Source: Carboxylicivirga linearis
GTDB taxonomy: Bacteria > Bacteroidota > Bacteroidia > Bacteroidales > Marinilabiliaceae
Reading direction: 5' to 3'
DNA: 64,000 nt
Assembly (NCBI RefSeq): GCF_018271995.1
Contig: NZ_JAGUCO010000013.1
Location: 62,001-126,000 of the forward strand
Each line of letters starts with the position of its first letter. The stretch's first letter is position 1. The translations under genes were made by a program, and so were the position numbers. The notes under the pieces are model-generated. The model was not told where the DNA came from. It worked only from the letters and a program-made list of their open reading frames with translations, and ran no database searches. Shown here one piece after another: positions 2,948 through 55,163 of this stretch.

Positions 2948-3017
2948 GTAAATATTTATTTTTTGAAGTCAAATATCTATTATTAAAAACTTGAATCAAT
3001 ATTTATAACTTATCTTG
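2948..3017 (+). promoter_or_regulatory. Promoter with tandem HTCS-type operator, site A (GH5-GH43 gene)
   Basis: The proximal motif 2969-2988 reads TCAAATATCTATTATTAAAA. Exactly 21 bases upstream (2948-2967) is a second copy with the same AAATAT core. A -7-like box, TTATCTTG, lies at 3010-3017, so its final G is 29 bases after the motif end. The -33 position falls on the AAAA end of the motif and has no TTTG, which suggests activator dependence. The start codon is 131 bases further on. Recognition by the HTCS at 7004-10930 is inference. Confidence 0.6.
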
Positions 3018-3147
3018 TCGCTTGCGTTTAATTGTCGATGTTATCGCTGGTTTTGATTAATGGCATAACCACATTTTTTATCATTTCAGGAACAAGTTTT
3101 CGATATCCTGATAAGCTTTAGAAATTCGATTGAAAACAATCTATAAT

Positions 3148-6100
3148 ATGAAAAAATCTACTTTTATACTTTTAGTATTCTTACAATTTTTTACAATTAA
3201 TCAAAATATTCTTGCTTGGGATGGAATGCCAACGCCTCGTCTTCATGTTGAGGGGCGTTACCTCAAAGATCCTCATGGTAATATTGTTAATTTACATGGT
3301 TTTGCCCAAACTTATAGCCCATGGTTTAACGAACGAGGTAAATACTGGAACAACTACGATGTAGATGGGTGTCTTACATATAATAAACGAATTATTGACG
3401 GGGTTTTGGATGCTGGATGGAAAGTTAATTTCTTACGTTTGCATATGGATCCATATTGGAGTAATCAATCTGGTTGCACACCTGACGGGCATGAGCTTCC
3501 AAATTGTTTTGATGAAGCTCGTTTTAGAAAGTATCTCGACGAAGTTTTCATCCCTATGGCTGAATATGCCATTTCCAAAGGATTATATGTCATCATGCGA
3601 CCTCCGGGTGTGTGTCCTGAAGTGATTGGTATTGAGGATGATTATAATTATGCAGAGTATTTAATGACGGTTTGGGATATTGTTTCGAGTCATCCTAAAA
3701 TTAAAAAGCTTGATGAAATTATGTTTGAGCTGGCAAATGAACCCGTGAAAATAAAACTGGCGGACGGATCAATAGGCAATAACACACAGGCTCATTTCGA
3801 TGTACTTAAAGAAATATTTCAGCCTATTGTGAATAAAATTCGAGAGAATGGATTTCACAATGTATTATGGATTCCCGGATCTGCATATCAGGCACAATAT
3901 AAGGGTTATGCCATTAATCCTATTGAAGGCAAAAATATTGGTTATGCTGTGCATATTTATCCAGGATGGTTTGGTAGTGCCAACGGATACCAAGAGTTTC
4001 AAAGCGAATGGGATAAGAACGTTAAACCAGTAACCGATTTTGCACCAATTGTTATTACAGAAATGGATTGGGCAGATGAAAAGTATAATTCATCTTGGGG
4101 AAAAGGATATACGGGTACTGCTGGTGGTGATGGATTTGGAGCTAATTTTAAAAAGATTACCGATGAGTCTGGTAATGTTAGTTGGCTGTTGTTTACAGAT
4201 GCCAATTTACTGGCTGATTTTGATGGAGTGCCTCCGGCAGAAGGCGAAGATTATACGTTTCTTAATGATCCGGAAGCTTGTCCATGGCCAGTTTATCATT
4301 GGTATCAGGATTATGCAGAAAAGGAATATCCAAGGCCAGATTTTGAATATAAATCATCTGCGGATAACGGTGATGGAACTTATACCAATCCATTGATTTT
4401 TGCTGACTTTCCCGATCCGGATGTAATTCGGGTGGATGATGTTTATTATATGGTATCTACAACCATGCATGTATTTCCTGGAGCTACCATATTAAAATCT
4501 TACGACCTTGTAAATTGGGAATATTGCAGTAATCCTTTGAATAAAATAGAATCTACTGATTGCTATAACCTTGATGGATGCGATAATTATGGTCATGGTC
4601 AGTGGGCATCAAGTCTAAAATATAATAATGGTCAGTTTTATTTACTATTTACAACATTGGATGAGGGTAGTTATCTGCTTACGGCTGAGTCTGCAGAAGG
4701 GCCTTGGACAAAGAGAAAGCTATCAGGATCTTATTATGATCCTGGACTATTTTTTGATGAAAATGGCAAAGTTTATGTGGTATATGGAATAAATACGCTG
4801 AATATAGCAGAGCTGGACGAAAATTTTGAGACCATTGCTGGGACTGCTAAAGAAGTATTCACTTATAAGATAAAAGAGGGGCTGGAGGGCAGCCATTTAT
4901 ACAAAATTAACGGCAAATACTATATTTATGCTACATATGGTGGATGGCCGGCTTATCAAGTAGCTTTGCGATCAGATGATATTTATGGACCGTACGAAGA
5001 GAAACTGCTTTTGGATGATAATAATATCCATCAAGGAGCTTTAATTGAAACACAAACGGGTGAGTGGTGGACAATCTTGTTTTATGACAGGGGTGCATTC
5101 GGAAGAATGCCTAACCTTCAACCTGTGACTTGGGTTGATGGTTGGCCTGAAATTGGTATAGAAGGAAAAGGCGTTACTACATATACGAAACCCAATGTGG
5201 GGAGTGAGTATCCTGAGACCATTTTACCTACCAATGATAATTTTAGAAATTATAAATTAGGAATGCAATGGGGATGGAATCATAACCCTGATGACTCAAA
5301 ATGGTCTTTAACTGAAAATCCTGATTATTTACGATTGAAAACCGTTAGTGTGGTGGATGATTTGACTTCCGCCAAAAATTCTCTTACACAACGTATTTTT
5401 GGTTATCATCACGCTCCAATTCCATCGTATGGAACCATTAAAGTGAATATTGATAATATGCAGGAAGGTGATGTGGCCGGTTTAGCTATTTTTCAGGATC
5501 CATATGCTTATATCGGAGTCAAAGTTGACAACGGTCAAAAAGTATTGGTGCAATTTAATAATGGGACAGAAACCATCGGAGATGCCGTAAATGTAAGTGA
5601 TATTTATTTAAGAGCAATTGCCAACTATTCAACAAGTAAAGCAAGTTTCTATTATAGCACTGATAACGAAACCTATACTCAGTTTGGTAGTGATTTGGAT
5701 ATGCAATACAATATGTCAATTTTCACAGGTAATAAATTTTGTTTGTTCAATTATGCAACAGAAGCTATCGGCGGATATGTGGATATTGATTGGTTTACAA
5801 CCGAAGAATTGTTTACCGAAGATGCCTTTTTTGATGATTCTTTTGTAGGTTATTCAGAAGATGAGTTAACCCTGTCGGACCTACTCGTTGATAATGGCGA
5901 TATTGATCTGCTAACCGGAGCTATTTCATCATTTTCGGTAACAGCCTTATATCAGAGTGGTCGAACAGAAGACGTTACATTGTCAGCTATTTATGAAAAC
6001 TCCAATCCCAATGCTGTAGAAATTGTTAATGGAAAAATAATCGCTTATGCTAATGGAGAAGCGGTTATCACAGTAAGCTACGAAGGAGAATTGGGAGATA

Positions 6101-6714
6101 GATTGTCAACCCAGTTCACTGTTAGCTCAAGTACTTTTCCTTTAACGGATAGTTTATTTAATCCTTCGATATGGGAGACGGGTACTTTTAATGAAATAAC
6201 ACAAACGTTAATTACCGGTCAATATGGTTTTGGTGGTTGGGAATACAGTGCCGGTGTTGACCTTTCGGATTATAAATATCTGGTGGTTAAACTGGCGAGT
6301 TCCGGGGCTTGTGGTGCTTCTTTCCGATTGTTTGATACAAATAACTATTGGAGTTCCCCAGCTACTTACGAATTAGCAGGCAGTACAATGCAAGTTGTAG
6401 ATCTTGCTAATATGAGTAATTCTGATGGCGTTAAGGTTGATCCTTCTCACCTTTATATTATTGGTTTTTGGTCGTATGGCAGTTGTTCCATCGAAATTGA
6501 AAAGGTATATGTAACCAATTCTGATGATTATGTAGAAACGGGGATTGAAGAAAATGTTTTGTTGCAATATGACGAGAATGAGATCGTAGATGTATACTCG
6601 ATTACAGGAGTATTATTGCGTAAATCAATCCGTAGAAGAGATGCAATTATTGGTTTGCCTTTGGGGGTTTATATTGTTGGAGGTGAAAAGATTATGAAGT
6701 GTAGCTGTTATTAA
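3148..6714 (+). CDS. Multimodular GH5-GH43 enzyme with Ig-like, CBM-like and T9SS-like C-terminal domains
   Basis: Start chosen at ATG 3148, not TTG 3130, because it gives a clean signal peptide (MKKSTFILL...). Modules in order: GH5 (about 30-385; acid/base Glu198 in ANEP, nucleophile Glu305 in ITEMD); GH43 with the PGA loop typical of the xylosidase/arabinofuranosidase branch (about 415-690; base Asp423, modulator Asp531, acid Glu580); a concanavalin-like xylosidase C-terminal domain (about 692-895); a bacterial Ig-like domain (about 915-1000); a CBM-like beta-sandwich (about 1005-1130); and an ending (about 1138-1188) with VYSITG and a GVYIV turn resembling a type IX sorting domain. The likely role is an extracellular endo-xylanase coupled to side-chain or xylose release. 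The GH5 subfamily (possibly GH5_21) is uncertain. All five catalytic acids are present. Confidence 0.88.
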   Translation: MKKSTFILLVFLQFFTINQNILAWDGMPTPRLHVEGRYLKDPHGNIVNLHGFAQTYSPWFNERGKYWNNYDVDGCLTYNKRIIDGVLDAGWKVNFLRLHMDPYWSNQSGCTPDGHELPNCFDEARFRKYLDEVFIPMAEYAISKGLYVIMRPPGVCPEVIGIEDDYNYAEYLMTVWDIVSSHPKIKKLDEIMFELANEPVKIKLADGSIGNNTQAHFDVLKEIFQPIVNKIRENGFHNVLWIPGSAYQAQYKGYAINPIEGKNIGYAVHIYPGWFGSANGYQEFQSEWDKNVKPVTDFAPIVITEMDWADEKYNSSWGKGYTGTAGGDGFGANFKKITDESGNVSWLLFTDANLLADFDGVPPAEGEDYTFLNDPEACPWPVYHWYQDYAEKEYPRPDFEYKSSADNGDGTYTNPLIFADFPDPDVIRVDDVYYMVSTTMHVFPGATILKSYDLVNWEYCSNPLNKIESTDCYNLDGCDNYGHGQWASSLKYNNGQFYLLFTTLDEGSYLLTAESAEGPWTKRKLSGSYYDPGLFFDENGKVYVVYGINTLNIAELDENFETIAGTAKEVFTYKIKEGLEGSHLYKINGKYYIYATYGGWPAYQVALRSDDIYGPYEEKLLLDDNNIHQGALIETQTGEWWTILFYDRGAFGRMPNLQPVTWVDGWPEIGIEGKGVTTYTKPNVGSEYPETILPTNDNFRNYKLGMQWGWNHNPDDSKWSLTENPDYLRLKTVSVVDDLTSAKNSLTQRIFGYHHAPIPSYGTIKVNIDNMQEGDVAGLAIFQDPYAYIGVKVDNGQKVLVQFNNGTETIGDAVNVSDIYLRAIANYSTSKASFYYSTDNETYTQFGSDLDMQYNMSIFTGNKFCLFNYATEAIGGYVDIDWFTTEELFTEDAFFDDSFVGYSEDELTLSDLLVDNGDIDLLTGAISSFSVTALYQSGRTEDVTLSAIYENSNPNAVEIVNGKIIAYANGEAVITVSYEGELGDRLSTQFTVSSSTFPLTDSLFNPSIWETGTFNEITQTLITGQYGFGGWEYSAGVDLSDYKYLVVKLASSGACGASFRLFDTNNYWSSPATYELAGSTMQVVDLANMSNSDGVKVDPSHLYIIGFWSYGSCSIEIEKVYVTNSDDYVETGIEENVLLQYDENEIVDVYSITGVLLRKSIRRRDAIIGLPLGVYIVGGEKIMKCSCY

Positions 6715-7003
6715 AAGGATTGATAGAACTGTTAGTGGACATAACTAAACGTAACATTCTAAAATAAATAAATCAAGAAAATATTTAAATCTGTTTCAAG
6801 AATTGTTATTTGAGAATAAAACTAAATTCATATTGATAATAATAAATTATTGATATTGTTTTTGATCATTAGTAGTTAAAGGTATGAATTGCCTGTTGAT
6901 GGCAGAAAGTTATTCTAAAGTGATACAAATTTTTATTTTCTTTTAATAAATTAAAGTTGATATTTATTACTTAATAAATGACAATTGAATTAATTCAAAT
7001 TAA

Positions 7004-10000
7004 ATGATACACCTGTCTATTATTGACGTAATTTTAAATAGGAAAGGACTTATTTCAATAGTTTTCCTTCTTTTGGGTTATGCTTCTTTTGCCAATATTT
7101 TATCAAATATTGAGTTTGTTAACTTAAATAAGGAGTATAATATTTCTATTAGGGAAACCTACCAGGTATGCTCTGATGACAATGGTTTTATTTGGATTTC
7201 TTCAAAAACGGGAATTTTAAGATATTCTCAAGATGATATTAGGATATATTCTCTACCCTATGAAACTGGCGATGTTATAACTGTATACTTAAGTTACAAA
7301 ATGGGGCAGTTATATGCCTATAGTAACAATGGTCAAATTTTCAAGTACAATTCTATATTGGATAAATTTGAGGTAGTTGTTAATATCTCTCAAATGCTAA
7401 ATAATCCATATCTTATTGTGTATAAGATGTTGATTGATCAAGAACAAACATTATGGGTGGCCAGTTCAAGTGGATTATTGTCTTATTCGAAAGCTGCCGG
7501 GTTAAAAAAAATAATTTCAGACACGACTATTGAATATATTGAATGGAAGGACGAAACAAATTTTTTTTATTGCCAAAAGGGTGTGGTATATACATTTAGT
7601 TTAGATAATAGAAGTCAAAAAGAATATTGTTATTTTCCAATTGAAATAAACCCTTTTGTATCATGTATTTATTATAACAAAGAATCATCTGATTTTTGGA
7701 TCGGGACATTAGGTAATGGACTATTTCGTTTAAATAAGAAAGACTCTTTAAATGTTCTGAAAAGTATTTCTTCAATTCCAGATCAGCCAATCCTCGCAAT
7801 TGAAATAATTTCTGACTCAATTGTGATGGTGGGTTTTGATGGAAAGGGGGTTTGGAGTTTGGATAAAAGTGATGAATCGGTTATCGAGATATTCAAAGAA
7901 GATTTGGATAATCCCAATTCATTAAAAGGCAATGGTGTTTATGACATTCAAGTAGCTCCAAATAATAATGTATGGGTTTGCACATATAGTGGAGGTGCAT
8001 CATATTTTAGTATTGAAAAGCCAGATATAAATAAAATAGCACACATTATCAATGAAGAGAATTCATTAGTTAATAACGATGTCAATTCATTAATAGAAGA
8101 TTCACGAGGAAACTTATGGTTTGCAACAAACAATGGCATAAGCAAGTATAGTCCGAAAAAAAATAAGTGGCAATCATTTTATCATGATAATGAGGAAGAA
8201 GGACAAGTGTTTTTGTCAATATGTGAAGATGATTATGGAAGAATCTGGGCAGGATCATATTCTTCAGGAGTATATGTGATTAAAGCCTCAACTGGTAAAG
8301 AGGAAAACCATTATTGTAGGCAGATAGATGGTGGTTCGTTTGCGTCCGATTTTGTTTTTGATATTATTAAAGATTTAAATGGTGACATTTGGATTGGAGG
8401 TGTACGAGGTGATTTAATTCGTTATGACCAGTCGGAAAATAAATTTAGTTCCTTTAAAGATGTTACTGTTAATGTTCTATATGAGTATTCTGAATCAAAG
8501 CTTTTAATAGGGACAACTTATGGGTTAATTATGTTTGACAAAATATCAGGAGAATCTGATGTTTTGGTTGATGGATATATTGTTTATGATATTAATGTAA
8601 ACAATGATAATGTTTGGTTAGCTACCAGTGGTGATGGTATTGTTACTTATAATCTAAATACGAATGACACTAAACTTATTAATACAGAGAAAGGACTACC
8701 TTCAAATTTCGTTAATAGTATTTCGTATGTGAATGGATATTATTGGGCTGGCACAGAACAAGGACTATGCAGAATTAATGAAGAAGATATACAAGTACAA
8801 ACATTCAACTCAAATTTAAATAATGTATCATTTAATAGAAATGCTAATTATCAAATGAAAAATGGCAATTTGATGTATGGTACCAATAAAGGCGTTATAT
8901 TATTCAATCCGAAACAAATAGAACCTATAGATCAAAATGGGCGCTTATATATTCAGGAAATTGCTGTTTCTGGTAGATCAATCCGAGAAATTGAGAAATT
9001 AAGACCCAATATCCCTTTAGATAGTTTGGAATATCTTCGTTTACCATATGTTAATAACACTATTGGTATAGAACTTTTACCTGTGGGAGGATCATCATCT
9101 GGTGTAAAATATTCATGGATACTTGAAGGATTAGATAATGATTGGAGTAAGCCTGGCAATAATAATGTATTTTCATATTCAAATATTCCAAGCGGGTCTT
9201 ATCGTTTGAAGATTAGAATGTATGATAGGTCTTTAACATATATTGTTAATGAGAGAGAATTGCTACTCAATATTACTCCACCTTATTGGGAAACTTGGTG
9301 GTTTAAGCTTTCTGTTATTTCTTTTGTAAGTCTTTTAATCACCATTTTTGTATTCTATTACATAAGTCGCCTACGCAAAAAACATTCAGAAGAAAAAATA
9401 CGTTTTTTCACAAATACTGCACATGATATGCGTACATCTTTAACCCTCATTAGTGCGCCTATTGAAGAACTAAGAAACGATGAGTCGCTTAGTGCTAAAG
9501 GAAAGAACTATTTAAATATGGCGTCTGTACAAGCTAAGAGGTTGACCAATGTGGTTACACGATTAATGGATTTTCAAAAGGTGGATATAGGCAAAGAAAG
9601 TTTGAATTTATCCAATGTGGATATAGTGAAATTTGTGGAATCACGAATAATGATGTTTGCAGCATCGGCCAAGCGTAGAAATTTGGAAATTGTTTTTGAA
9701 TCAGAATTAAAAGAGTTTGATACATTAATTGATGAAATTATTATTGAAAAAATTATTGATAATTTATTGTCAAATGCCATAAAATACTCATATGATGAAA
9801 ATATAATAAAGGTGCGTTTGTTATTTGGCAATAGTAAATGGAAATTTGAGGTAACAGATAAAGGTATTGGTATAGAAAAGAAAGCTCAAAAGCAATTATT
9901 TAAAGAATATTACAGAGGCGATAATGCAATTAACTCAAAAATTGTTGGATCAGGAATTGGCTTGCTTTTAGTGAAGAATTACGTACTCTTACATGGCGGT

Positions 10001-10930
10001 AAAATTACTTGTGAGAGTTATCCAGAACAAGGTACAACCTTTTCGATAAATATTCCAATTCTAAAAGGGGCAGAAACACAAACTCAGAATTATATCTCTA
10101 GCTCTAATGATTCACAGTATAAAATAAATAGCGAAGATACCGACATTCATATAGAAAAGGTGTTGGATGTAAATAGTTCGGGTATGAAGGTAGTTGTTGT
10201 AGAGGATAATGATTATTTGAGAGAGTTTCTGGCTTCTGCATTAATGGATACATATCAGGTGTTTTTAGCTGAAGATGGCAATGAAGGGTGGAGTGTGATC
10301 AACAAACATTCTCCTGATATGGTGGTATCAGATATTATGATGCCAGGCATGGATGGCTATGATTTGTGTAAAAAAATAAAATCTACCTACGAAACATCGC
10401 ACATACCGGTTATATTATTAACTGCTTTAGGAGGCAAAGAACAACAACTTCAAGGCTTGGGGTTAGGCGCTGATGATTATCTTATAAAACCTTTTGATGT
10501 TAATATATTAAGACAGAGGATAAATACTATTATTCAGAATCGTGAATTAATAAAAGATAGAGCCCTAAAAATAATTAAGCATTCAGATGTAGACGAAACT
10601 CTCTTGCGTAATGAGCTTAATGATAAGTTTTTAAAGAAAATGGTTAAAATAGCTCGCGATAATATTAGTAATTCCACATTTTCGAAGGATGATTTTGCCT
10701 CGGCAATGAATGTCAGTTCTTCTCTCTTATATAAGAAGGTGAAATCTCTTACCAATCAGTCACCTACGGATTTTATTAAGGTAATTCGGTTGGAGTATGC
10801 TCTCGAATTAATTCAATCAAGAAAATACACAATAACAGAAGTTAGTGAAATGTGCGGCTTTGCTAGTGTTGGTTATTTTAGTACGGTCTTCAGAAAACAC
10901 TATGGAAAATCTCCAACACAGGTAAATTGA
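7004..10930 (+). CDS. Hybrid two-component system sensor/regulator (HTCS)
   Basis: A 1308-residue one-protein two-component system. Order: signal or first membrane segment (about 13-33); periplasmic two-propeller sensor made of Reg_prop-type repeats (about 35-690; repeated D-x-x-G-x-(I/L)W-(I/F) blades); Y_Y_Y domain (about 690-760); transmembrane helix (about 766-790); HisKA with His807; HATPase_c with N box LLSNAIKYS and G boxes DKGIGIE and GSGIGL; receiver with phospho-acceptor Asp1110 in SDIMMPGMDG; and an AraC-type HTH (about 1205-1305). Such proteins sense imported oligosaccharides and activate PUL promoters. The H-box reads HDMRTSLT, with Ser where most have Pro. It is the only regulator in the window and sits among the xylan operons, so it is the natural candidate to bind the 21-base-spaced operator described here. 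Confidence 0.96.
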   Translation: MIHLSIIDVILNRKGLISIVFLLLGYASFANILSNIEFVNLNKEYNISIRETYQVCSDDNGFIWISSKTGILRYSQDDIRIYSLPYETGDVITVYLSYKMGQLYAYSNNGQIFKYNSILDKFEVVVNISQMLNNPYLIVYKMLIDQEQTLWVASSSGLLSYSKAAGLKKIISDTTIEYIEWKDETNFFYCQKGVVYTFSLDNRSQKEYCYFPIEINPFVSCIYYNKESSDFWIGTLGNGLFRLNKKDSLNVLKSISSIPDQPILAIEIISDSIVMVGFDGKGVWSLDKSDESVIEIFKEDLDNPNSLKGNGVYDIQVAPNNNVWVCTYSGGASYFSIEKPDINKIAHIINEENSLVNNDVNSLIEDSRGNLWFATNNGISKYSPKKNKWQSFYHDNEEEGQVFLSICEDDYGRIWAGSYSSGVYVIKASTGKEENHYCRQIDGGSFASDFVFDIIKDLNGDIWIGGVRGDLIRYDQSENKFSSFKDVTVNVLYEYSESKLLIGTTYGLIMFDKISGESDVLVDGYIVYDINVNNDNVWLATSGDGIVTYNLNTNDTKLINTEKGLPSNFVNSISYVNGYYWAGTEQGLCRINEEDIQVQTFNSNLNNVSFNRNANYQMKNGNLMYGTNKGVILFNPKQIEPIDQNGRLYIQEIAVSGRSIREIEKLRPNIPLDSLEYLRLPYVNNTIGIELLPVGGSSSGVKYSWILEGLDNDWSKPGNNNVFSYSNIPSGSYRLKIRMYDRSLTYIVNERELLLNITPPYWETWWFKLSVISFVSLLITIFVFYYISRLRKKHSEEKIRFFTNTAHDMRTSLTLISAPIEELRNDESLSAKGKNYLNMASVQAKRLTNVVTRLMDFQKVDIGKESLNLSNVDIVKFVESRIMMFAASAKRRNLEIVFESELKEFDTLIDEIIIEKIIDNLLSNAIKYSYDENIIKVRLLFGNSKWKFEVTDKGIGIEKKAQKQLFKEYYRGDNAINSKIVGSGIGLLLVKNYVLLHGGKITCESYPEQGTTFSINIPILKGAETQTQNYISSSNDSQYKINSEDTDIHIEKVLDVNSSGMKVVVVEDNDYLREFLASALMDTYQVFLAEDGNEGWSVINKHSPDMVVSDIMMPGMDGYDLCKKIKSTYETSHIPVILLTALGGKEQQLQGLGLGADDYLIKPFDVNILRQRINTIIQNRELIKDRALKIIKHSDVDETLLRNELNDKFLKKMVKIARDNISNSTFSKDDFASAMNVSSSLLYKKVKSLTNQSPTDFIKVIRLEYALELIQSRKYTITEVSEMCGFASVGYFSTVFRKHYGKSPTQVN

Positions 10931-10954
10931 AATAGATAATAGAATAATATATTT

Positions 10955-10991
10955 AAAAGTCGATCAAAAGGTATTTGGGTCGACTTTTTTG
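10955..10991 (+). terminator. Intrinsic terminator after the HTCS gene
   Basis: A perfect 9-bp stem (AAAAGTCGA at 10955-10963 with TCGACTTTT at 10980-10988) closes a 16-base loop and runs into a T tract. It lies 24 bases after the HTCS stop codon. Confidence 0.8.
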
Positions 10992-11123
10992 TATGTTAAA
11001 AAATGTGTTCTATTGGTTACATGTGTTGTGAAAAATAAATAATATTCAACATTTATGTTATGAAAGTACTATGAATATTAAGTTGTGATAGGTGTTTAAT
11101 TTAAAGATAATGAGTGTGATATG

Positions 11124-11193
11124 ATCGTTGTCTATATTCGAAAATCAAATATCTAATATTAAAACAGCTCAGATAATGGATAGTCTATTTTTG
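11124..11193 (+). promoter_or_regulatory. Promoter with operator motif, site B (GH43 gene at 11279)
   Basis: The proximal motif 11145-11164, TCAAATATCTAATATTAAAA, differs from site A at one base. The copy 21 bases upstream (11124-11143) is degenerate and keeps only TnTCTA and the AAA end. An exact -7 box TATTTTTG lies at 11186-11193; its G is 29 bases after the motif end. Leader to the chosen ATG is 85 bases. Confidence 0.6.
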
Positions 11194-11278
11194 ATTTGTG
11201 GTTGTAGTCATTTTTAAATTCAATATTGGAAGTGGGTACAATTCAAAATCAAAAACTAACAAATCCATTTTAAGAGTG

Positions 11279-13015
11279 ATGAAAAAAAATCTAAACATAT
11301 ATTTAGTAGCCTTTTTTATAGTTGCTATTATTTTGTCATTAACAAATACTTCATGTACACCACCTTTCAATTCACGAAGTGTTAATTTAGATTCAGATAG
11401 TTTAACAGCGCATTTCGATTACTTCAGGTATAAGGGTGATGATGATTTCTATAAAAACAATCTCTTACCAGGAGATAATTACTATTATAATCCTATTCTT
11501 CCAGGGTGGTATTCCGATCCAAGTATTTGTACTGATGGTGAGAATTATTTTATGGTAACTTCAACGTTCTCATTCTTTCCGGGAGTTCCCATTTTTCATA
11601 GTACTGACTTAATGAATTGGAAACAGATTGGGCATGTTCTTGATCGACCCGAGCAATTACCTTTAGAAGGTCAGCGTACCAGTAGGGGTATATTTGCTCC
11701 CGCAATTAGTTATAACCCGCATAATAAAACATGGTACATGATTACAACCAATATGCAGGGCGGTAACTTTTTTGTAAAAACACAAGATCCGTTTAGTTCA
11801 TGGTCCGATCCTATTTGGTTACCCGATGTTCACGGTATCGATCCTTCTTTTTTGTTTGATGAAGATGGAAAAGCTTACATTGTTAACAACGATGAGCCTG
11901 ATGGAGGATCTACTTATGAAGGACATAGAGCTATACGTATTGTCGAGTTTGATGTTGAAAAAGATAAGACTGTTGGTCCAAGTACAATGTTAGTGAATGG
12001 TGGCGTCAATTTAGATGAGAAACCAATTTGGATTGAAGGACCGCATCTATATAATATAAAAGGTGACTATTATCTGATGTGTGCCGAAGGAGGAACTTCG
12101 GTGGATCATCGAGAAGTTATTTTTAGAGGAAAGTCACCTATGGGCCCATTTATACCTGCTGATGTTAATCCTATTTTAACACAACGTCATTTACCACGCA
12201 ACAGAGAGTTACCTGTTACTTGTGCCGGACATGCTGATTTAATTCAGGATAAAGATGGAAAATGGTGGTCGGTATTCTTGGCTTGTCGTCCTATTGAAAA
12301 TAATTTTGAAAATCTTGGGCGCGAAACCTTTTTAATGCCTGTTGGCTGGAGCGATAGCGGTTTTCCATACATAACAAAAGGAGATGAGTTGATACCACGA
12401 ATTGTACAAATGAAAGGTGTCAAACGTGATGAATCAGCTTTCCCATTCGGTAATTTTGAGAAAACGGACGAATTTGATTCACTTAAGCTGGGGATGGATT
12501 GGTTAACACTTCGTGGTGATGCCTCTGAATTATATTCACTGCAGACAAATCCTGGTTATTTATCATTAAAAAGCGCTGATGTAGCTTCAAACGAGGTAAA
12601 AGAGCTAGCCTATGTTTGTCGTCGACTACAACATCATAAATTCGAGTGTGAAACACGTTTGTATTTCGAGCCAAAATCGGAAGATGAGATGGCAGGTTTG
12701 CTTCTTTATAAAGATGAAACACATCAATATTTAATGGGGATTAAACATTTGGCAACTGATTCTATTGAAATTAATTTAATAAAAGTAAAAGAAGAAGGAG
12801 CTGAAGTACTTGCTTCACAAACGTTAGCAAAAACCAATGGACCTATTGATTTAAAAATTAACTCTACCGGTAAAGAACTAAGCTTCTATTATGCAACAGA
12901 TAATAGCTGGTCGACTTTAGCAACTAATATTAATGCCTACTATTTATCTACCGCTCAATCATATGGTTTTACAGGTACTGAAGTAGGCTTATATGCATCA
13001 CAAAAAGAATATTAG
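11279..13015 (+). CDS. GH43 beta-xylosidase/alpha-L-arabinofuranosidase with xylosidase C-terminal domain
   Basis: The frame is open from 11198, but the ATG at 11279 directly precedes a membrane-type signal (MKKNLNIYL...) ending in a Cys near residue 27, a loose Bacteroidota lipobox; the promoter box at 11186-11193 also supports it. The GH43 five-blade propeller spans about 65-380, with base Asp80 (SDPS), modulator Asp188 (GIDPS) and general acid Glu253 (WIEGPH). The PGVPIFHS loop and C-terminal concanavalin-like domain (about 400-578) place it in the GH43_10/_11/_12 branch. Such enzymes release xylose or arabinose from xylo-oligosaccharides. It is a single-gene unit between the HTCS and the xus operon, and resembles the gene at 35104-36852. 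Confidence 0.9.
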   Translation: MKKNLNIYLVAFFIVAIILSLTNTSCTPPFNSRSVNLDSDSLTAHFDYFRYKGDDDFYKNNLLPGDNYYYNPILPGWYSDPSICTDGENYFMVTSTFSFFPGVPIFHSTDLMNWKQIGHVLDRPEQLPLEGQRTSRGIFAPAISYNPHNKTWYMITTNMQGGNFFVKTQDPFSSWSDPIWLPDVHGIDPSFLFDEDGKAYIVNNDEPDGGSTYEGHRAIRIVEFDVEKDKTVGPSTMLVNGGVNLDEKPIWIEGPHLYNIKGDYYLMCAEGGTSVDHREVIFRGKSPMGPFIPADVNPILTQRHLPRNRELPVTCAGHADLIQDKDGKWWSVFLACRPIENNFENLGRETFLMPVGWSDSGFPYITKGDELIPRIVQMKGVKRDESAFPFGNFEKTDEFDSLKLGMDWLTLRGDASELYSLQTNPGYLSLKSADVASNEVKELAYVCRRLQHHKFECETRLYFEPKSEDEMAGLLLYKDETHQYLMGIKHLATDSIEINLIKVKEEGAEVLASQTLAKTNGPIDLKINSTGKELSFYYATDNSWSTLATNINAYYLSTAQSYGFTGTEVGLYASQKEY

Positions 13016-26381: not shown

Positions 26382-26451
26382 GCGAATATCTTATGTTTGA
26401 AGCAATATACTCAAAATTAAAAGACCTTTTATTCAAGTCAATTTATATTTG
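26382..26451 (+). promoter_or_regulatory. Promoter with tandem operator, site F (GH115 operon)
   Basis: The distal copy 26382-26401 carries the strong GAATATCTTATGTTT core. The proximal copy 26403-26422 reads CAATATACTCAAAATTAAAA and is offset exactly 21 bases. The -7 box TATATTTG (26444-26451) is an exact TAnnTTTG match and its G is 29 bases after the proximal copy. The proximal left half is weaker than at sites A to D. Leader to the GH115 ATG is 132 bases. Confidence 0.55.
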
Positions 26452-34921: not shown

Positions 34922-34991
34922 CGAAATATCCGAAATTATAGATGGAATATCTAAGATTTAAATAGTAACCTTTTTCTATCAATTAGTTTTA
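34922..34991 (+). promoter_or_regulatory. Promoter with tandem operator, site E (GH43-GH3-GH97 operon)
   Basis: Distal copy 34922-34941 (CGAAATATCCGAAATTATAG) and proximal copy 34943-34962 (TGGAATATCTAAGATTTAAA) are offset by exactly 21 bases. The -7-like box TAGTTTTA (34984-34991) matches TAnnTTTG in all but the last base and ends 29 bases after the proximal copy. Leader to the ATG at 35104 is 112 bases. Confidence 0.6.
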
Positions 34992-46530: not shown

Positions 46531-46573
46531 TAAGATAAAACTAAAAAATAATAACTTTCTTCTGTATTTTAAT

Positions 46574-46600
46574 CAACCTGAACATGTTTCAGGTTGTTTG
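46574..46600 (+). terminator. Intrinsic terminator after GH31
   Basis: A perfect 9-bp stem, CAACCTGAA (46574-46582) with TTCAGGTTG (46588-46596), closes a 5-base loop and is followed by TTTG. Confidence 0.7.
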
Positions 46601-46667
46601 AAATTACAATGTTTTAGGTATTTGCGAAGGCTAATGTCTTTCATTTTAATACATTCAGATTAATAAT

Positions 46668-47231
46668 ATGAACTCGACCTCTAAACTAAACAGTATAGTA
46701 GTAGCTGTAATTCTGCTATTCTTATTTATTTCCAGGAATACTTTTGCCCAAAGTCCTGAAACGGAAAAAGGAGATAGCATTTATCTCGATTTTAAAATGG
46801 AACTGATGTGGAAGGCTAAGGTCAAGATCGGAAAAACGATTAATGTTGGAGAGAGTAAACGAGGTTCAAGGCATATGATTCCCATTATCGGTGGTACATT
46901 TAGAGGGCCAAATATTAACGGCGAAGTTTTACCATATGGTGAAGACTGGCAGCTAGTACGTCCTGATGGTGATACAGAACTTAATGCGCGATATTTGCTT
47001 CAAACTGAAGATGGTATAATTATTCGCATTGCAAACAAAGCCTTAATGCATAAGCCAGCCAAAGATGATGAAGGTGGTTTTTATGTGAAATCTGTGGTTG
47101 ACATTGAAGCTCCTTCTGAAAGTATTTACGACAATTTAAACCATGCTGTCTTTATAGGAACGCTCGAAATCCCGCAAATAGAGCCAAACGAAGAGCCATA
47201 TGTTGTAATTGGCGTTTATAAAGTACTATAG
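46668..47231 (+). CDS. Secreted DUF3237-family protein
   Basis: A 187-residue protein with a signal peptide (to about residue 28, TFAQ). The body matches the small beta-barrel DUF3237 family: IPIIGGTFRGPNINGEVLPYGEDWQLVRPDG (about 64-94), ARYLLQTEDGIIIRI, and a C-terminal YVVIGVYKV strand. No enzymatic activity is established for this family as far as I know, and I see no catalytic motif. It stands alone between the GH31 terminator and the GH29 gene. Its export and position inside a carbohydrate locus suggest a periplasmic or surface accessory role, but no function can be assigned. Confidence 0.8.
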   Translation: MNSTSKLNSIVVAVILLFLFISRNTFAQSPETEKGDSIYLDFKMELMWKAKVKIGKTINVGESKRGSRHMIPIIGGTFRGPNINGEVLPYGEDWQLVRPDGDTELNARYLLQTEDGIIIRIANKALMHKPAKDDEGGFYVKSVVDIEAPSESIYDNLNHAVFIGTLEIPQIEPNEEPYVVIGVYKVL

Positions 47232-47509
47232 TTTAAGGTCAAATTTGATATTAATTATCATTGTTAGTTTAATATTAAACTTTTAATTTCTTCTTTTTAT
47301 TGAAGAGCTTTAGATTATAATATGTCTTTTGGGGGATTGTTGAAATTTTTTACAAAATTTATCAACTAAATAGTAAATATCAATAATTTTGCCTTTCATT
47401 AGAACTGAGTGTATGTATTTAAATATCAAATGTATAATTCAGTAAAATACTCATTTCTTTTTTGTTAGTTATCAGGTTCTTTTATTGAACTAAAGTTAAA
47501 GTCATAAAT

Positions 47510-49147: not shown

Positions 49148-49800
49148 TTTGATTATCAATTTTTGTGTATGAATGTCATTGTTTAAACAATATTTTTATG
49201 CATAACCATATTTTTTTTTGAGATTGCTTATTGAATTTCAATACCAGATTTCAGCCTTGGAATTCAATCATCCCGGTATTTCATAGAAAAAAAGGATTTT
49301 GAACTAAGTCAGATTTAATTATAGAAGTTTTAGAAACCTAACCTTAATTTTTATTTTCATTTAATAATAAGGCTGTCCATTTTCTTAAAGACAGCCTTAT
49401 TCATTTGGGGGAGAAGGGAAACTTAAAAGTTTATAAATATTTTACAGATTCAGTATATTGACCACGTCAAGTGTACAATAAGTGAAAAAAGTCTGAATGA
49501 TACATGTTTTAATGAAATTATAAATAGCTAATAACTTTGTAATTAATTAAAATGGCTCACCATTGAATATGGTGTTAAATGTTGAAAATTTGATGTCTTA
49601 ATTATTAAGACTTATAATTTCGTAAATTTCGTCTATCTTATTTTTACTGTTTCCCTTATTCTTATCTCAGCTCTCATTTTATAAAACACAGTCATTCCTC
49701 GATATATATTTAATTCAAATAACACTTCGTTACATATGTAGGCTTTCAGTTTCCTATTTTTAAGATATTATTCCTAGAATCTATCTAATAATGTTAGAGC
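49148..49800. other. Long intergenic region before the third SusC
   Basis: About 650 bases of AT-rich DNA with no convincing open frame on either strand. Its only clear structure is the terminator at 49366-49401. The operator/promoter begins at 49801. Confidence 0.6.
49366..49401. terminator. Hairpin terminator, possibly bidirectional
   Basis: A perfect 12-bp stem, AATAAGGCTGTC (49366-49377) with GACAGCCTTATT (49390-49401), closes a 12-base loop. It lies about 220 bases after the GH29 stop codon and marks the break between the side-chain genes and the third SusC/D pair. Confidence 0.75.
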
Positions 49801-49869
49801 TCAAATATCTAAAATCTTAATAATTATATCGAATATTAAAACTAAACAACAGGGGAATAGTATACTTTG
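49801..49869 (+). promoter_or_regulatory. Promoter with tandem operator, site C (third SusC/SusD pair)
   Basis: Distal copy 49801-49820 (TCAAATATCTAAAATCTTAA) and proximal copy 49822-49841 (AATTATATCGAATATTAAAA) are offset exactly 21 bases. A -7-like box, TATACTTTG (49861-49869), ends 28 bases after the proximal copy, one base closer than at the other sites. Leader to the SusC ATG is 67 bases. Confidence 0.6.
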
Positions 49870-49936
49870 CGATTTTAATTAACATTTGTTAATAATAATT
49901 GACAAATCATTACTTGATAATTAAAGCCAAAATTCT

Positions 49937-52900
49937 ATGAAAAAAAGAAATCTCATTTTGCTTCTTTTTTTGTTTGTAGGCTTTGCTGCATTTGCCCAAA
50001 AAAAGGTGAGCGGTACTGTTTACGACAATGAGAACATGCCCATTCCCGGGGTAACAGTTCTTGAAAAAGGAACCTCCAACGGAATTATTACCGATATGGA
50101 TGGAAATTATTTAATAACAATTCCAGGAGACGATGCCATATTAGTATTCTCTTTTATTGGAATGAAAACTCAAGAAATCACAGTTGGCACTCAAACTACC
50201 GTTAACGTTAACATGATACCTGACATGGCCGACCTGGACGAAGTGGTGGTTGTTGGATATGGTGTACAAAAGAAGAAACTGGTTACAGGAGCCAACCTTT
50301 CCCTTGGATCGGATGATTTACAACGTCAGAATTCGACACAGGCATTAGATGCTATTCAAACGATGTCTCCAGGGGTGAACATTACTCAAGGATCGGGTAT
50401 GCCAGGGGAAGGTTTTAAAGTGAATATTCGCGGTTTGGGTACTATTGGTGATTCAAATCCGCTTTATGTGATTGACGGTGTTGCTGGTGGTGATATCAAT
50501 ACCCTTAACCCTTCGGATATCGAATCGATCGACGTATTAAAGGATGCGGCTTCAGCTGCCATCTACGGTTCCAGGGCTGCCAACGGTGTTATTTTGGTAA
50601 CCACCAAGAGTGGTAAAAAAGGACGTACTTTGGTGACATATGATGGATTTTATGGTGTGCAGAATGTTTATAAAATGCCTGATTTATTGAATGCTCAGCA
50701 GTTTATGGATATTTACAACGAGGAACGTGTGGTTTCAGGAAAAGATCCCCTTGATTTCGCTTCAATCATTCCTGGCATATACCAGGATATTCAAAATGGA
50801 TGGAAAGGAACTGACTGGATGAAAGAAACCGAAAACAAGAATGCTCCCATCCAAAACCATTCTATAAACATTACCGGAGGATCTGAAAGCTCAGTGTTCG
50901 CAATTGGATTTTCTTATTCGTCAGAAGAAGGTACTTTGGGAAAACCTGTTCAACCAAAAAGCGATAGGTATACCTTACGTTTGAACAGCGACCATATTTT
51001 ATATGAGAAGGACGGATTGGACATCATTAAAATGGGTCAAACTTTAAATTACAGTTATCGTGAAAGAAGTGGTATTGCCATTGGCGGTATGTATTCTAAC
51101 GACATCCGTAATATGATGACAGGAAGTCCCTTGCTACCAGTATACAATGATGAAGGTGAGTATTATGCCAGAACAGATGCTCAGGCCTCAGGTCTTGAGG
51201 CATTATCATCACGCATATACAATCCATTGGCTTTGATGGATTTAAATCGTGGTCAAAACGAGACCATAAATTACAACCTCAATAGTAATGCCTATCTTCA
51301 AATTCAACCAATAAAAGGGTTGATTTGGAAAACTAACTTTGGGTACAGAATGCATTCTGATTCATACCGAAGCTACCAACCTGAGTATTTTTTAGCTGGG
51401 GATGCATTTATGACCCCCGGTCGGATTACCCAAAATGCAGGCAGTGGATATCGTTGGACTCTTGAAAATACATTGAATTATAATTTTAAAATGAATATAC
51501 ATTCATTTGATGTGTTGGTGGGACAATCTGCGGAAAAATGGGGCTATGGGACCAATATGAGTGCTACCAATGCCAATCCTACTTTTATTGGTTATGATTA
51601 CGCATATCTTGACAATACCGATGGGTTAACATCAGGTATAACAAGTATTGGAGGTGCACCCAATGAAAGGGGGGCTCTTGCTTCATACTTTGGAAGGGTC
51701 AATTACGACTTCAACGAGAAGTATCTACTTACCCTGGTGATGCGTGCTGACGGATCTCATAATTTTGCTCAAGGCAATCGTTGGGGATATTTCCCATCAG
51801 TTTCGGGCGGTTGGGTAATGACCGAAGAACGCTTTATGGCCGACAATGGCGTTGTTGATTTCCTAAAATTACGAGCTAGTTGGGGACAAAATGGTAATCA
51901 AAATGTTGATTCTTACCAGTATTTGAGCCTTATTGGCTTTGACGCTGAAAACAATTATAGATTCGGGAACGATCGCTCTAAAATGCAACTGGGTGGTTAT
52001 CCTTCTGTACTCCCAAATACTGCTATTACTTGGGAAACTTCTGAACAATTAGATATCGGTATAGATGTCCATTTCTTAGACTCAAGACTACAGGGGGCAT
52101 TCGATTATTATGTCAAAACCACCAAGGATTGGTTGGTTCGTCCTAATATTTCTGATGTTATGGGTCCTGATGCTGCTTTTGCTAATGCTGGTGATATCGA
52201 GAATAAAGGATTTGAACTAGGGTTACGTTGGAATGACAATGTGGGTGAATTTACTTATGGTGCTCAATTTAACATTTCTAAAAACAAAAATACAGTTACC
52301 AAATTTGGCGATAACACTGGTGCTTTCGAAAGTGATCCAAGTGTTATTTCACAAGGTACCGACCCGGTTTGGCGAGTTGAAAATGGAATGCCTGCGGGCT
52401 ATTTCTACGGATACAAAACTGAAGGTGTTTTCCAGAATGAACAACAAATTGCGGAATGGACTCATGGCTTCCTTCAAGCTGATCCACAGCCAGGAGATGT
52501 TATTTTCTCTGACGTCAATGGTGACGGTGAAGTGACCACAGAAGATAAAACCATGATTGGTAATCCTCATCCCGATATTAGAATTGGTTTTGGCCTTAAC
52601 TTCGCTTACAAAGGATTCGATTTCTCATTGAGTGGTAATGGAGCATTTGGCCATCAAATACTGAAGTCTTATCGTTCATTTGGTGACAACGAATTTCATA
52701 ATTATACTACTGACATTTTGGGGCGTTGGCATGGTGAAGGAACTTCAAATAAAATTCCTCGCATGACTCCAGGCAATGGAACTAACCGGTTAAATATATC
52801 AGAGTTATACATTGAAGATGGTGACTATGTTAAAATTCAGAATATAACCCTTGGTTATGACTTTAAAAAACTGTTACCTAAATTACCATTGTCGCAAGCT

Positions 52901-53062
52901 CGCATGTTCGTGGCAGGACGTAACCTATTTACTTTTACCGATTATTCTGGCTTAGATCCTGAAATAGGTTATGGTGATGGACAAGGTTTTGTACAAGGTA
53001 TTGATCTCGGTTTTTATCCTGCTCCCAAAACTTATATGGTAGGATTTAATTTGAAATTCTAA
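49937..53062 (+). CDS. SusC-family TonB-dependent transporter (third pair)
   Basis: A 1041-residue transporter with a full N-terminus: signal peptide (to about residue 21, FAAFAQ), carboxypeptidase-regulatory-like domain (about 23-100), TonB box DEVVVVGYGVQKKK (about 102-115), plug with LYVIDGVAGGDINTLNP and SIDVLKDAASAAIYGSRAANG, and a barrel ending in GFNLKF. It pairs with the SusD 15 bases downstream. Unlike the two xus SusC proteins it is followed only by SusD and no SusE-type gene. The substrate is probably a xylan-derived oligosaccharide, because its promoter shares the operator of the xylan enzyme genes. Confidence 0.95.
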   Translation: MKKRNLILLLFLFVGFAAFAQKKVSGTVYDNENMPIPGVTVLEKGTSNGIITDMDGNYLITIPGDDAILVFSFIGMKTQEITVGTQTTVNVNMIPDMADLDEVVVVGYGVQKKKLVTGANLSLGSDDLQRQNSTQALDAIQTMSPGVNITQGSGMPGEGFKVNIRGLGTIGDSNPLYVIDGVAGGDINTLNPSDIESIDVLKDAASAAIYGSRAANGVILVTTKSGKKGRTLVTYDGFYGVQNVYKMPDLLNAQQFMDIYNEERVVSGKDPLDFASIIPGIYQDIQNGWKGTDWMKETENKNAPIQNHSINITGGSESSVFAIGFSYSSEEGTLGKPVQPKSDRYTLRLNSDHILYEKDGLDIIKMGQTLNYSYRERSGIAIGGMYSNDIRNMMTGSPLLPVYNDEGEYYARTDAQASGLEALSSRIYNPLALMDLNRGQNETINYNLNSNAYLQIQPIKGLIWKTNFGYRMHSDSYRSYQPEYFLAGDAFMTPGRITQNAGSGYRWTLENTLNYNFKMNIHSFDVLVGQSAEKWGYGTNMSATNANPTFIGYDYAYLDNTDGLTSGITSIGGAPNERGALASYFGRVNYDFNEKYLLTLVMRADGSHNFAQGNRWGYFPSVSGGWVMTEERFMADNGVVDFLKLRASWGQNGNQNVDSYQYLSLIGFDAENNYRFGNDRSKMQLGGYPSVLPNTAITWETSEQLDIGIDVHFLDSRLQGAFDYYVKTTKDWLVRPNISDVMGPDAAFANAGDIENKGFELGLRWNDNVGEFTYGAQFNISKNKNTVTKFGDNTGAFESDPSVISQGTDPVWRVENGMPAGYFYGYKTEGVFQNEQQIAEWTHGFLQADPQPGDVIFSDVNGDGEVTTEDKTMIGNPHPDIRIGFGLNFAYKGFDFSLSGNGAFGHQILKSYRSFGDNEFHNYTTDILGRWHGEGTSNKIPRMTPGNGTNRLNISELYIEDGDYVKIQNITLGYDFKKLLPKLPLSQARMFVAGRNLFTFTDYSGLDPEIGYGDGQGFVQGIDLGFYPAPKTYMVGFNLKF

Positions 53063-53077
53063 TAAACTTAATTTTAG

Positions 53078-54805
53078 ATGATTATGAAAAAAATAGTATA
53101 TTTAATCATTGTTGCTGCGATGTTGGGTAGCTGCTCAGAGAATTTTCTGAATGTGGAGCCACTCACTCAAAAAACTTCGGATAACTTTCCTCAGACAGCA
53201 GATGATGCAAAGCAAATGATGGCAGGTATTTATACAACCATGAATAACGAACAGCGTAACGTAGACCAAAGTTATTTGTTTGTATGTGAAGTGGCCAGTG
53301 ACGAAAAATTGGGCGGCGGCGGCGTTAATGATATTAAAGCTCAATCATACGAGGCCATGATGTATTCAGATCCTGAAATGCTGTCTCATACGTGGGATGT
53401 AACTTACGAAGGAATTCACCGCGCAAATTTTGCCATTGAAAATATGGACCTGCTTAGTGATATTGTTGTGAGTCCCGAACTGAAAAATCAATACAAGGGA
53501 GAAGCCCTTTTCTTAAGAGCTTTCTTTTTCTATCGTTTGGCGACCCTTTTTGGAAATGTGCCGCTAAAAATAACCACGGAAGAAGCTAATTTGCCCGCTG
53601 CAAGTACGGAAGAGATTTACGGGCAGATCACATTAGACTTAAAAACAGCTATTGAACTATTGCCCAAAGTGCCTTATTCTTCAACAGAGGAAGGTCGTGT
53701 AACTGTTTGGGCAGCTCAAGCCTTAATGGCTCGTGTGTGGCTTTTTTATACCGGTTTTTACCAAGAGGCTTCACTGCCTGGTGTTACAAAGGCTGAAGTT
53801 ACTTCTTGGTTGGGAGAATGCATCAGTGCCAGCGGACATTATTTGGTTGACGATTATCACGAACTTTGGCCTTATACAAATTCTTTGACAATCAACGACT
53901 ATCCTTACATGACTGATTATATGGAGCAAACAGACAAGGATCTTCTATATGCTGCTGATAATGGTGCTGTAAGCCCTGAGACAGTATTTGCGCTTAAGTT
54001 TTCGAACTTTGCCAATTGGGACATAAGACGAGGTTATAGTAATACGTTTCAATTGTTCTTCGCATTGCGAGGATTGCAATCGGTAGCTAATACATTTCCT
54101 TTTGCAGGAGGTTGGGGACAAGGTAACTCTATCCCTAAACATATTGTTGATCAATGGCAGATTGATGAACCTAACGACATCCGTCTTTGGGCTTCTGTAA
54201 TTGATATTGAATCTGAGCTTCCTAATTACGCAAAAGGTCAATGGGATTTTGTGATGGAAAGTAATTATTGGGGTAAGAAATATAATGGTGTCACCGCAAA
54301 AGACGCTGATGGCTCAATTAAGAATGATTACAGCGTCATCATGTACGGTAATCAAGACAATAATCAGTTATCGCATGGTGATGATTTGATTTTCATCCGT
54401 TTTGCCGATGTGTTACTGATGATGTCTGAGTTAACTGAAGACGCTTCATATATGAATGAGGTACGTGGTCGCGTTGGCCTTGATCCGGTAGCATATTCGT
54501 TGGAAAATATTCAAAAGGAGCGTCATCATGAGCTTGCTTTTGAAGGATTGCGTTGGAACGATATGCGTCGTTGGGGTGCAGATTATACCAAAACTGCCCT
54601 TGAGACTCAGATGGGAACACCAGTATATAACTTTGGTAGTCCTGAAGTATTTAACGGGCTTAATAGCAAAGGTTATAGTGCTCGTTATGATGAAACCAAA
54701 GGCTTCTTCCCTATTCCTCAGAGACAAATCGATCTTTCAAATGGATTATTGGAACAAACTCCTGGGTTTACTAGTAATGATCTTTATCCAGGATTTAGCA
54801 ATTAA
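53078..54805 (+). CDS. SusD-family surface glycan-binding lipoprotein (third pair)
   Basis: A 575-residue RagB/SusD protein. Two ATGs (53078, 53084) precede the lipoprotein signal; the second gives MKKIVYL with Cys17 in the good lipobox LGSC and may be the true start. SusD landmarks: YKGEALFLRAFFFYRLATLFG, FIRFADVLLMMSELTED, and KERHHELAFEGLRWNDMRRWG. The end lacks the usual NPGY/NAGW and reads TPGFTSNDLYPGFSN. It lies 15 bases after its SusC, and a terminator follows 31 bases after the stop. Confidence 0.94.
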   Translation: MIMKKIVYLIIVAAMLGSCSENFLNVEPLTQKTSDNFPQTADDAKQMMAGIYTTMNNEQRNVDQSYLFVCEVASDEKLGGGGVNDIKAQSYEAMMYSDPEMLSHTWDVTYEGIHRANFAIENMDLLSDIVVSPELKNQYKGEALFLRAFFFYRLATLFGNVPLKITTEEANLPAASTEEIYGQITLDLKTAIELLPKVPYSSTEEGRVTVWAAQALMARVWLFYTGFYQEASLPGVTKAEVTSWLGECISASGHYLVDDYHELWPYTNSLTINDYPYMTDYMEQTDKDLLYAADNGAVSPETVFALKFSNFANWDIRRGYSNTFQLFFALRGLQSVANTFPFAGGWGQGNSIPKHIVDQWQIDEPNDIRLWASVIDIESELPNYAKGQWDFVMESNYWGKKYNGVTAKDADGSIKNDYSVIMYGNQDNNQLSHGDDLIFIRFADVLLMMSELTEDASYMNEVRGRVGLDPVAYSLENIQKERHHELAFEGLRWNDMRRWGADYTKTALETQMGTPVYNFGSPEVFNGLNSKGYSARYDETKGFFPIPQRQIDLSNGLLEQTPGFTSNDLYPGFSN

Positions 54806-54836
54806 ACTACCCTAATAGTATCCTGTATTCAGGACA

Positions 54837-54879
54837 AAAACCGGAAGAAAACTAGATCCTTACTTCCGGTTTTCCTTTT
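54837..54879 (+). terminator. Intrinsic terminator after the third SusD
   Basis: A perfect 11-bp GC-containing stem, AAAACCGGAAG (54837-54847) with CTTCCGGTTTT (54863-54873), closes a 15-base loop and is followed by CCTTTTG. It separates the SusC/D pair from the esterase/GH8/GH9 operon. Confidence 0.85.
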
Positions 54880-55093
54880 GTTATCTTAAAATTCAGAAAA
54901 TCCGAGTTTCTGTTTTATCCTGTTCAATTAACCTGTGTTCGATTTAAATTTTAATATTCAAATTTTATTAAGAAGATGATTTGCAAGGTGAATTTTTGAA
55001 GCTGTCAAAACTATTAATGAAGATCCTAAATAGAAAGTTGTTTTACATTTAATTAAATACTATTTGATTTGAGATATTACTTCCATTATATCA

Positions 55094-55163
55094 TATCTGG
55101 TTCGAAATCTAAAATCAAATATCTAAAATCAAAAATATCAATGCATCAAAATTTCTAAGTTTG
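55094..55163 (+). promoter_or_regulatory. Promoter with operator motif, site D (esterase-GH8-GH9 operon)
   Basis: The proximal motif 55115-55134, TCAAATATCTAAAATCAAAA, shares its first 16 bases with site C. The copy 21 bases upstream (55094-55113) keeps only its right half, AAATCTAAA. An exact -7 box TAAGTTTG (55156-55163) ends 29 bases after the motif. The leader is long (226 bases to the ATG at 55390) and I see no structure in it. Confidence 0.6.

Follow-up and report, generated by a model that had tools for sequence, protein, structure and literature searches.

Six operons of a xylan cluster in Carboxylicivirga linearis are each preceded by a 41-bp element made of two half-site copies that start 21 bp apart. 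The cluster lies in a stretch of 64,000 nucleotides (NCBI RefSeq assembly GCF_018271995.1, contig NZ_JAGUCO010000013.1, positions 62,001 to 126,000 of the forward strand; C44:62001-126000, hereafter the window) of a genome of 6.05 Mb (G000). We regard this tandem as very probably the operator of the hybrid two-component system (HTCS) protein encoded at position 7004, which would act as an AraC-type class II activator. The tandem keeps its spacing, lacks a TTTG motif at -33, is conserved among relatives and co-occurs with the HTCS; most of its sites, not all, stand at a fixed distance from a -7 box, and within the limits of our scans it is specific to the cluster. An earlier sequence-only reading of the window had proposed six proximal copies (at 2969, 11145, 26403, 34943, 49822 and 55115), each with a second copy 21 bp upstream, a -7 box downstream and the HTCS as likely ligand. 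All six proximal copies are present.

Proposed operator sites of the xylan cluster

The gene content of the cluster was established by scanning 30 window proteins with Pfam. It comprises a GH5-GH43 gene, the HTCS, GH43 genes, three SusC/SusD pairs, GH10 genes, GH115, GH3, GH97, GH95, GH31, GH29, GH8, GH9 and esterases, and the only DNA-binding domain found at E 1e-3 among these proteins is that of the HTCS. The sites, scored with a matrix built from relatives of other genera (see below), their -7 boxes and the regulator gene are as follows:

2948..2988, plus strand: tandem operator (distal copy 2948-2967, proximal copy 2969-2988) before the GH5-GH43 gene, 27.6 bits
3010..3017, plus strand: weak -7 box TTATCTTG, placed by geometry, 2 mismatches to TAnnTTTG
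7004..10930, plus strand: HTCS, with propeller sensor, HisKA, HATPase, receiver and AraC-type output domain (Pfam), proposed ligand of the operator
11124..11164, plus strand: tandem operator before GH43a-SusC1-SusD1-SusC2-SusD2-DUF5627-GH10a, 28.0 bits
11186..11193, plus strand: -7 box TATTTTTG, exact match to TAnnTTTG
26382..26422, plus strand: tandem operator before GH115-SASA-MFS-GH10b-GH43b, 12.9 bits, the weakest of the six
26444..26451, plus strand: -7 box TATATTTG, exact match to TAnnTTTG
34922..34962, plus strand: tandem operator before GH43c-GH3-GH97b and possibly genes beyond, 37.7 bits
34984..34991, plus strand: -7 box TAGTTTTA, 1 mismatch
49801..49841, plus strand: tandem operator before SusC3-SusD3, 23.3 bits
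49861..49869, plus strand: -7-like box TATACTTTG, poor, one base short of the common register
55094..55134, plus strand: tandem operator before the BD-FAE esterase and GH8 genes and possibly genes beyond, 27.4 bits
55156..55163, plus strand: -7 box TAAGTTTG, exact match to TAnnTTTG
68608 in window coordinates, beyond the window end (C44:130608): tandem site before a GH11 xylanase gene, no good -7 box
about -3713, upstream of the window (C44:58287): tandem site before an esterase operon, 15.1 bits, no good -7 box, less certain

The gaps that hold the six sites measure 504, 267, 311, 389, 789 and 560 bp, and no site was found in the window gaps of 289 (before the HTCS gene), 246, 278 and 225 bp. 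Both the 2948..2988 operator and the less certain C44:58287 site recur in G001, G002 and G006, and the counterpart of the weak 26382..26422 operator reaches 21.5 bits in G002 and 15.0 in G001. Three further candidates were rejected: a possible site before SusC1 (10.9-12.8 with a window matrix) has no -7 box in place and does not exceed 12 bits with the other-genera matrix, a match at 57758 lies only 22 bp before GH9 and is too near the start, and C44:128422, before a GH51 gene, overlaps the GH51 start codon.

The -7 box at 11186..11193 stands just 5' of the mechanically called GTG start at 11198, so translation probably begins at the in-frame ATG at 11279 instead. The mechanical starts at 3130 and 55366 likewise seem too early, and at all three genes in-frame ATGs (3148, 11279 and 55390) followed by signal-like sequence fit better. 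The leaders between operator and GH11 start measure 355 bp (L031:4649-5002), 414 bp (G019) and 307 bp (G025) and are longer than those at the six window sites; that of G033 is 129 bp. No Rfam match was found in the window or in L031.

Specificity of the tandem

Homologous regions were obtained from the 11 of 35 scanned relatives that carry an orthologue of the window's HTCS (identities 44-96%; that of G014 runs off its contig); the orthologue search scored 10 candidates per genome, and the other 24 relatives lack one. A separate look for loci related to the HTCS gave 80, none above 33% identity, and these were left aside. The 41-bp tandem matrix was built from 29 sites in eight relatives of other genera. 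Since these training sites were located with matrices started from the window sites, they were not chosen blindly and their 21-bp spacing was preset; the tests are the specificity of the matrix and the -7 box. It replaced a six-site matrix that included the promoter, which was given up for its weak leave-one-out scores at 26403 (4.5) and 34943 (2.9).

A single copy carries little information. With up to 5 mismatches the 20-mer occurs at 21 window positions, 15 of which are non-sites, and its 17-base core, allowing up to 2 mismatches, is found 54 times in the genome, exactly as often as a reversed control; the single-copy consensus was therefore dropped as evidence. An A-T-rich coincidence selected by eye would account for such a frequency, and the possibility that the motif is equally common elsewhere, which the sequence-only reading had named as its refutation, is indeed borne out for the single copy. 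It is not for the tandem. The other-genera matrix scores the six window sites at 12.9-37.7 bits, and in the 132 kb around the window, on both strands, it exceeds 12 bits at eight positions, namely the six sites, the GH11 site and the esterase-operon site. In 60 order-1 Markov windows of 64 kb the mean number of positions reaching 12.9 bits was 0.07 and the top score 16.1, versus five positions of at least 23 bits in the real window. These statistics, together with the recurrence of the tandem across genera and its constant offset to the -7 box, leave a coincidence with next to no probability.

In the scan of the C. linearis genome the five best matches were four window sites and the GH11 site, headed by the 34922..34962 operator (E 3.8e-6). 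The genome scans are non-exhaustive, scoring 150 first-look candidates out of several hundred to about 10,000 per genome, and in the own genome the 26382 and C44:58287 sites were missed. Among the best 30 of the 74 own-genome matches, which were placed on the genome (the other 44 being weaker), 24 fall outside the cluster; 18 of these 24 are intragenic, and at all 24 the -7 box shows 2 or more mismatches. Four of the eight minus-strand matches placed score at most 8.2 with the full matrix, and may be matches to one half only or misplaced. Two high-scoring matches, C11:143852 (24.4) and G022:C177 (26.8), were set aside as background, being intragenic and devoid of a -7 box.

The spacing was examined by applying the proximal matrix to seven own sites. 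A second copy appears at offset -21 (mean 7.5), and the means of all 18 other offsets are negative. The two copies are unequal: mismatches to the consensus of the sequence-only reading, given as proximal/distal, are 1/7 (2969), 0/10 (11145), 6/6 (26403), 3/6 (34943), 5/3 (49822) and 1/11 (55115), with a poor proximal copy at 26403 and 49822. A third half-site 21 bp away was above threshold in none of 57 sites. Overlapping matches 21 bp apart were seen at G014:C10:3262-3323 and near 7,500 of G014:C26, where they suggest three successive half-sites.

Promoter geometry

TAnnTTT starts at base 22 past the proximal copy in 37 of the 57 sites, which come from nine genera; within the genus the count is 15 of 27 sites, outside it 22 of 30. 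No other base between 1 and 45 serves as its start in more than two of the sites. In the window, a -7 box had been claimed for all six sites; it is an exact TAnnTTTG in three, TAGTTTTA in one, and poor at 2969 and 49822. The claimed absence of TTTG at -33 was borne out: no TTTG starts between -5 and +5 of the proximal copy end in any of the 57 sites (two start at -6 and one at +6), and an exact TTTG-N19-21-TAnnTTTG occurs on neither window strand. These promoters therefore have the -7 half of a canonical primary-sigma promoter in most sites and lack its -33 half. As the proximal half-site occupies the place where the -33 TTTG would be, it appears to replace that element. A proximal site over the -33/-35 position is the class II layout of AraC-type activators, and the AraC-type geometry proposed earlier, with a 21-bp repeat and a promoter without its own upstream element, fits the sites.

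The constant distance to the -7 box could also be read as that of an extended promoter recognised by an alternative, extracytoplasmic function (ECF) sigma factor, with no activator site at all. To our knowledge, a 41-bp direct repeat is no usual sigma element. Moreover, sigma, anti-sigma and STN domains were absent from the 30 window proteins scanned, so that neither an ECF sigma and anti-sigma gene pair nor a SusC with a signalling domain accompanies the cluster among them. ECF sigma/anti-sigma pairs are described as standard regulators of such genes in the part of PMC10766802 consulted, and the -7 box is of the primary sigma factor type, judging from the part of PMC7366714 used here; we consider the sigma factor explanation very unlikely. 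The same part of PMC7366714 gives the primary-sigma promoter of the phylum as TAnnTTTG at -7 with TTTG near -33, and reports that the -33 motif was not found in Flavobacterium johnsoniae.

Conservation and co-occurrence with the HTCS

Comparison with relatives that keep the HTCS, suggested by the sequence-only reading, showed that the motif is kept before orthologous operons and found together with an orthologous HTCS. Across three to four congeneric genomes, invariant columns amount to 183 of 246 in the sites, 37 of 48 in the -7 boxes, 74 of 126 in the spacers and 741 of 1560 in the remainder of the 330 upstream bases; the figure for the sites is lowered by GH115, because G006 differs in sequence there. 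In a comparison of three genomes, 37 of the 41 columns of the 49801..49841 operator do not vary, versus 125 of 260 in the remaining upstream region, and upstream of SusC3 in G002 the operator stands out amid diverged sequence.

At E 1e-3 or better, a threshold chosen after the results, matches were found in all 11 relatives with the HTCS orthologue and in none of the 24 without it. Eight of these 11 had supplied training sites; leaving them out, matches remained in three of three against 0 of 24.

The sites also occur away from the cluster. In 15 further regions (20 stretches) around matches outside the training regions, 26 matrix positions exceeded 19, of which 22 were intergenic and 17 had an in-register -7 box with at most one mismatch. 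By Pfam and protein searches such sites precede GH11 (G019, G025 and G033), GH8 (G027) and GH43 and GH115 (G014) genes; one of the three GH11 sites has the exact -7 register, and two have TAnnTTTA one base later. As judged by eye from translations, they also precede GH3, double esterase and SusC genes (G014) and a GH97 gene (G030). Two G033 sites, in C67 (27.6) and C34 (25.9), have a good -7 box and overlap a long mechanically called open reading frame, the next one starting 33-34 bp on. In G027 (L287:3185-4171) a LacI-family regulator gene follows a tandem site whose -7 box has 1 mismatch, a possible cascade. The sites at G021:C5:66302, 71068, 92642 and 98388 go with a dispersed repeat of about 0.5-1.1 kb in four copies, 86-94% identical, each of which starts at the tandem operator or no more than about 30 bases from it, far from the HTCS; the gene after one copy encodes a 6-bladed propeller (DUF5128).

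The HTCS as the predicted regulator

The protein encoded at 7004 combines sensor, kinase, receiver and AraC-type output domain in one chain. Its kinase His and receiver Asp are kept and its receiver contains the motif SHIP, on which grounds we take it to be a phosphorylation-dependent activator; the S/C-H-I-P receiver motif accompanies phosphorylation-dependent DNA binding in Bacteroides, according to the part of PMC11253607 consulted. Residues 1061-1306 match the solved structure 12aw chain A (E 3.4e-44). The output domain is the best conserved part: across nine full-length copies of other genera it is 60-70% identical to that of the window, versus 40-45% for the sensor. This conservation, the co-occurrence described above and the lack of a rival DNA-binding protein among those scanned in the window support the earlier prediction that the HTCS is the ligand.

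The tandem could alternatively be the operator of another regulator travelling with the cluster, either an HTCS encoded elsewhere or a one-component AraC protein. The genome encodes numerous further HTCS-like proteins (28 matches at E 0.001), and co-occurrence cannot tell the HTCS from the polysaccharide utilization locus (PUL) in which it lies. Set against this, Pfam found no second DNA-binding domain among the 30 window proteins, half-sites differ at other HTCS loci, and the HTCS gene adjoins the SusC1-SusD1-SusC2-SusD2-DUF5627-GH10 block in seven of eight relatives of other genera, the contig ending there in G014. We therefore judge another regulator to be improbable.

Several observations weigh against the HTCS as activator at these sites. 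Joint inheritance of HTCS and PUL keeps co-occurrence from distinguishing the two completely. Matches up to E 0.05 were found in 11 of the 24 HTCS-less genomes (four of 10 in the genus and seven of 14 in the family), two of them at 0.0016. In the own-genome scan the margin is small, the fifth cluster match scoring 18.2 bits versus 17.4 for the next, which lies inside a gene elsewhere, and among the eight own sites only four place TAnnTTT at base 22. Directly upstream of the HTCS gene itself no site is present, and S/C-H-I-P is altered in six of the 13 HTCS copies long enough to include the receiver (those of G002, G006, G027, G033 and both of G035). The four repeated G021 sites do not precede recognised xylan genes, nor do the remote sites of G001 and G022. 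Finally, among GH115 genes, for which 30 of 40 matches were examined, 14 of 18 upstream regions in HTCS-bearing genomes lack the site and four have it, and the GH115 upstream region of HTCS-less G022 reaches 13.3 bits, above the window's own GH115 site (12.9), without a -7 box. None of the 12 GH115 upstream regions from HTCS-less genomes has both site and -7 box, and this control indicates that the site follows the regulon and not the gene family. GH8 failed as a control, since at E 1e-30 it is confined to HTCS-bearing genomes (11 of 36 searched); six of 12 GH8 upstream regions of 1.5 kb contain the site.

Two side observations concern the regulator gene. HTCS and GH43a (window 7004-13015) are 64-73% and 65-66% identical to their counterparts in G002 and G006, versus 84-99% for most neighbours; this block looks swapped as a unit, though most operators stay alike. 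In G025:C38 and G035:C14 there are two HTCS paralogues per cluster (44-47% identical to that of the window) and one shared operator type.

Binding, control by phosphorylation, activation and the ligand are the parts of the HTCS proposal that we infer. Xylo-oligosaccharides would bind the periplasmic propeller of the HTCS, which would then phosphorylate its own receiver and free the AraC-type domain. Two such domains would occupy the two half-sites (AATATCTnAAATTnAAA, 21 bp apart and on the same helix face), and the proximal one, ending at the place of the -33 TTTG, would recruit the primary-sigma polymerase to TAnnTTTG 21 bp downstream. Seven or eight operons, with sites spanning about 72 kb, would thus be switched on, and the same might apply to unlinked GH11, GH8 and other genes of relatives.

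A possible general layout of HTCS promoters

We lean slightly towards a general rule for HTCS promoters, in which half-sites lie 21 bp apart and about 21 bp from TAnnTTT(G/A), there is no -33 element, and only the half-site sequence varies. The sample consisted of 51 stretches around other HTCS genes in eight genomes (mostly G001, G004 and G021; also G000, G012, G030, G033 and G035), with 210 intergenic -7-like boxes, each examined for a repeat whose end lies 21 bp ahead of it; the test was prompted by a first look at 20 of the stretches. Boxes with a score of at least 13 numbered seven at lag 21 versus 0-3 at every other lag between 12 and 31, and those with at least 10 numbered 14 versus 1-6. 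The half-sites differ between other HTCS loci, and at one locus the same half-site occurs twice. Counting against the rule, the mean score is slightly higher at lag 22, the excess at lag 21 is spread over spacers of about 11 to 31, and some of the 51 stretches are orthologous or adjacent. Given the spread of spacers and the mean at lag 22, the test gives stronger backing to the repeat itself than to how far it stands from the -7 box. If the rule holds, operators and regulons of uncharacterised HTCSs would be readable from sequence, and a similar layout with other half-sites would help to decode the many HTCSs with unknown targets.

Comparison with known systems

In araI1-I2, as in other class II AraC sites, a 21-bp direct repeat places its proximal half-site over the -35 or -33 region. 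The tandem shares the 21-bp repeat and the overlap of its proximal half with -35/-33, and differs in that its proposed activator is fused to a membrane kinase and its promoter is of the Bacteroidota type. With the receiver-AraC fragments of BT4124 and BT4663 (PMC11253607, in the part consulted) the HTCS has in common the output domain and the S/C-H-I-P motif; ligands and DNA sites are different, and some HTCSs of the relatives deviate from that motif.

The closest precedent is the work of Ravcheev et al. (2013; PMC3878776), who, in the part consulted, assigned predicted direct repeats with a mean spacing of 21 bp to 16 HTCSs of B. thetaiotaomicron, no motif being predictable for 20 of 36. As in the present cluster, where a direct repeat with copies about 21 bp apart lies before the susCD operons of the locus, those operators are direct repeats before susCD operons and were assigned to HTCSs by comparative genomics; there too one motif serves several operons, some of them distant, and one locus has two HTCSs on one motif. 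Here the half-site and the species are other ones and the cluster is a xylan cluster. The part of that paper drawn on gives no fixed -7 distance and makes no statement on -33, and the parts consulted of PMC12125979, PMC10766802, PMC10994844, PMC12596196 and PMC11501099 add nothing on a fixed -7 distance. Our search found no publication on this motif, though one may exist. The tandem provides a concrete candidate operator for an uncharacterised xylan HTCS, a predicted regulon that takes in seven or eight operons of a single cluster and, in relatives, unlinked xylanase genes, and a promoter layout exact enough for footprinting that other such regulators may share. Since 21-bp HTCS repeats had been predicted by Ravcheev et al. 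(2013), the kind of site is known, and what appears new is this operator itself.

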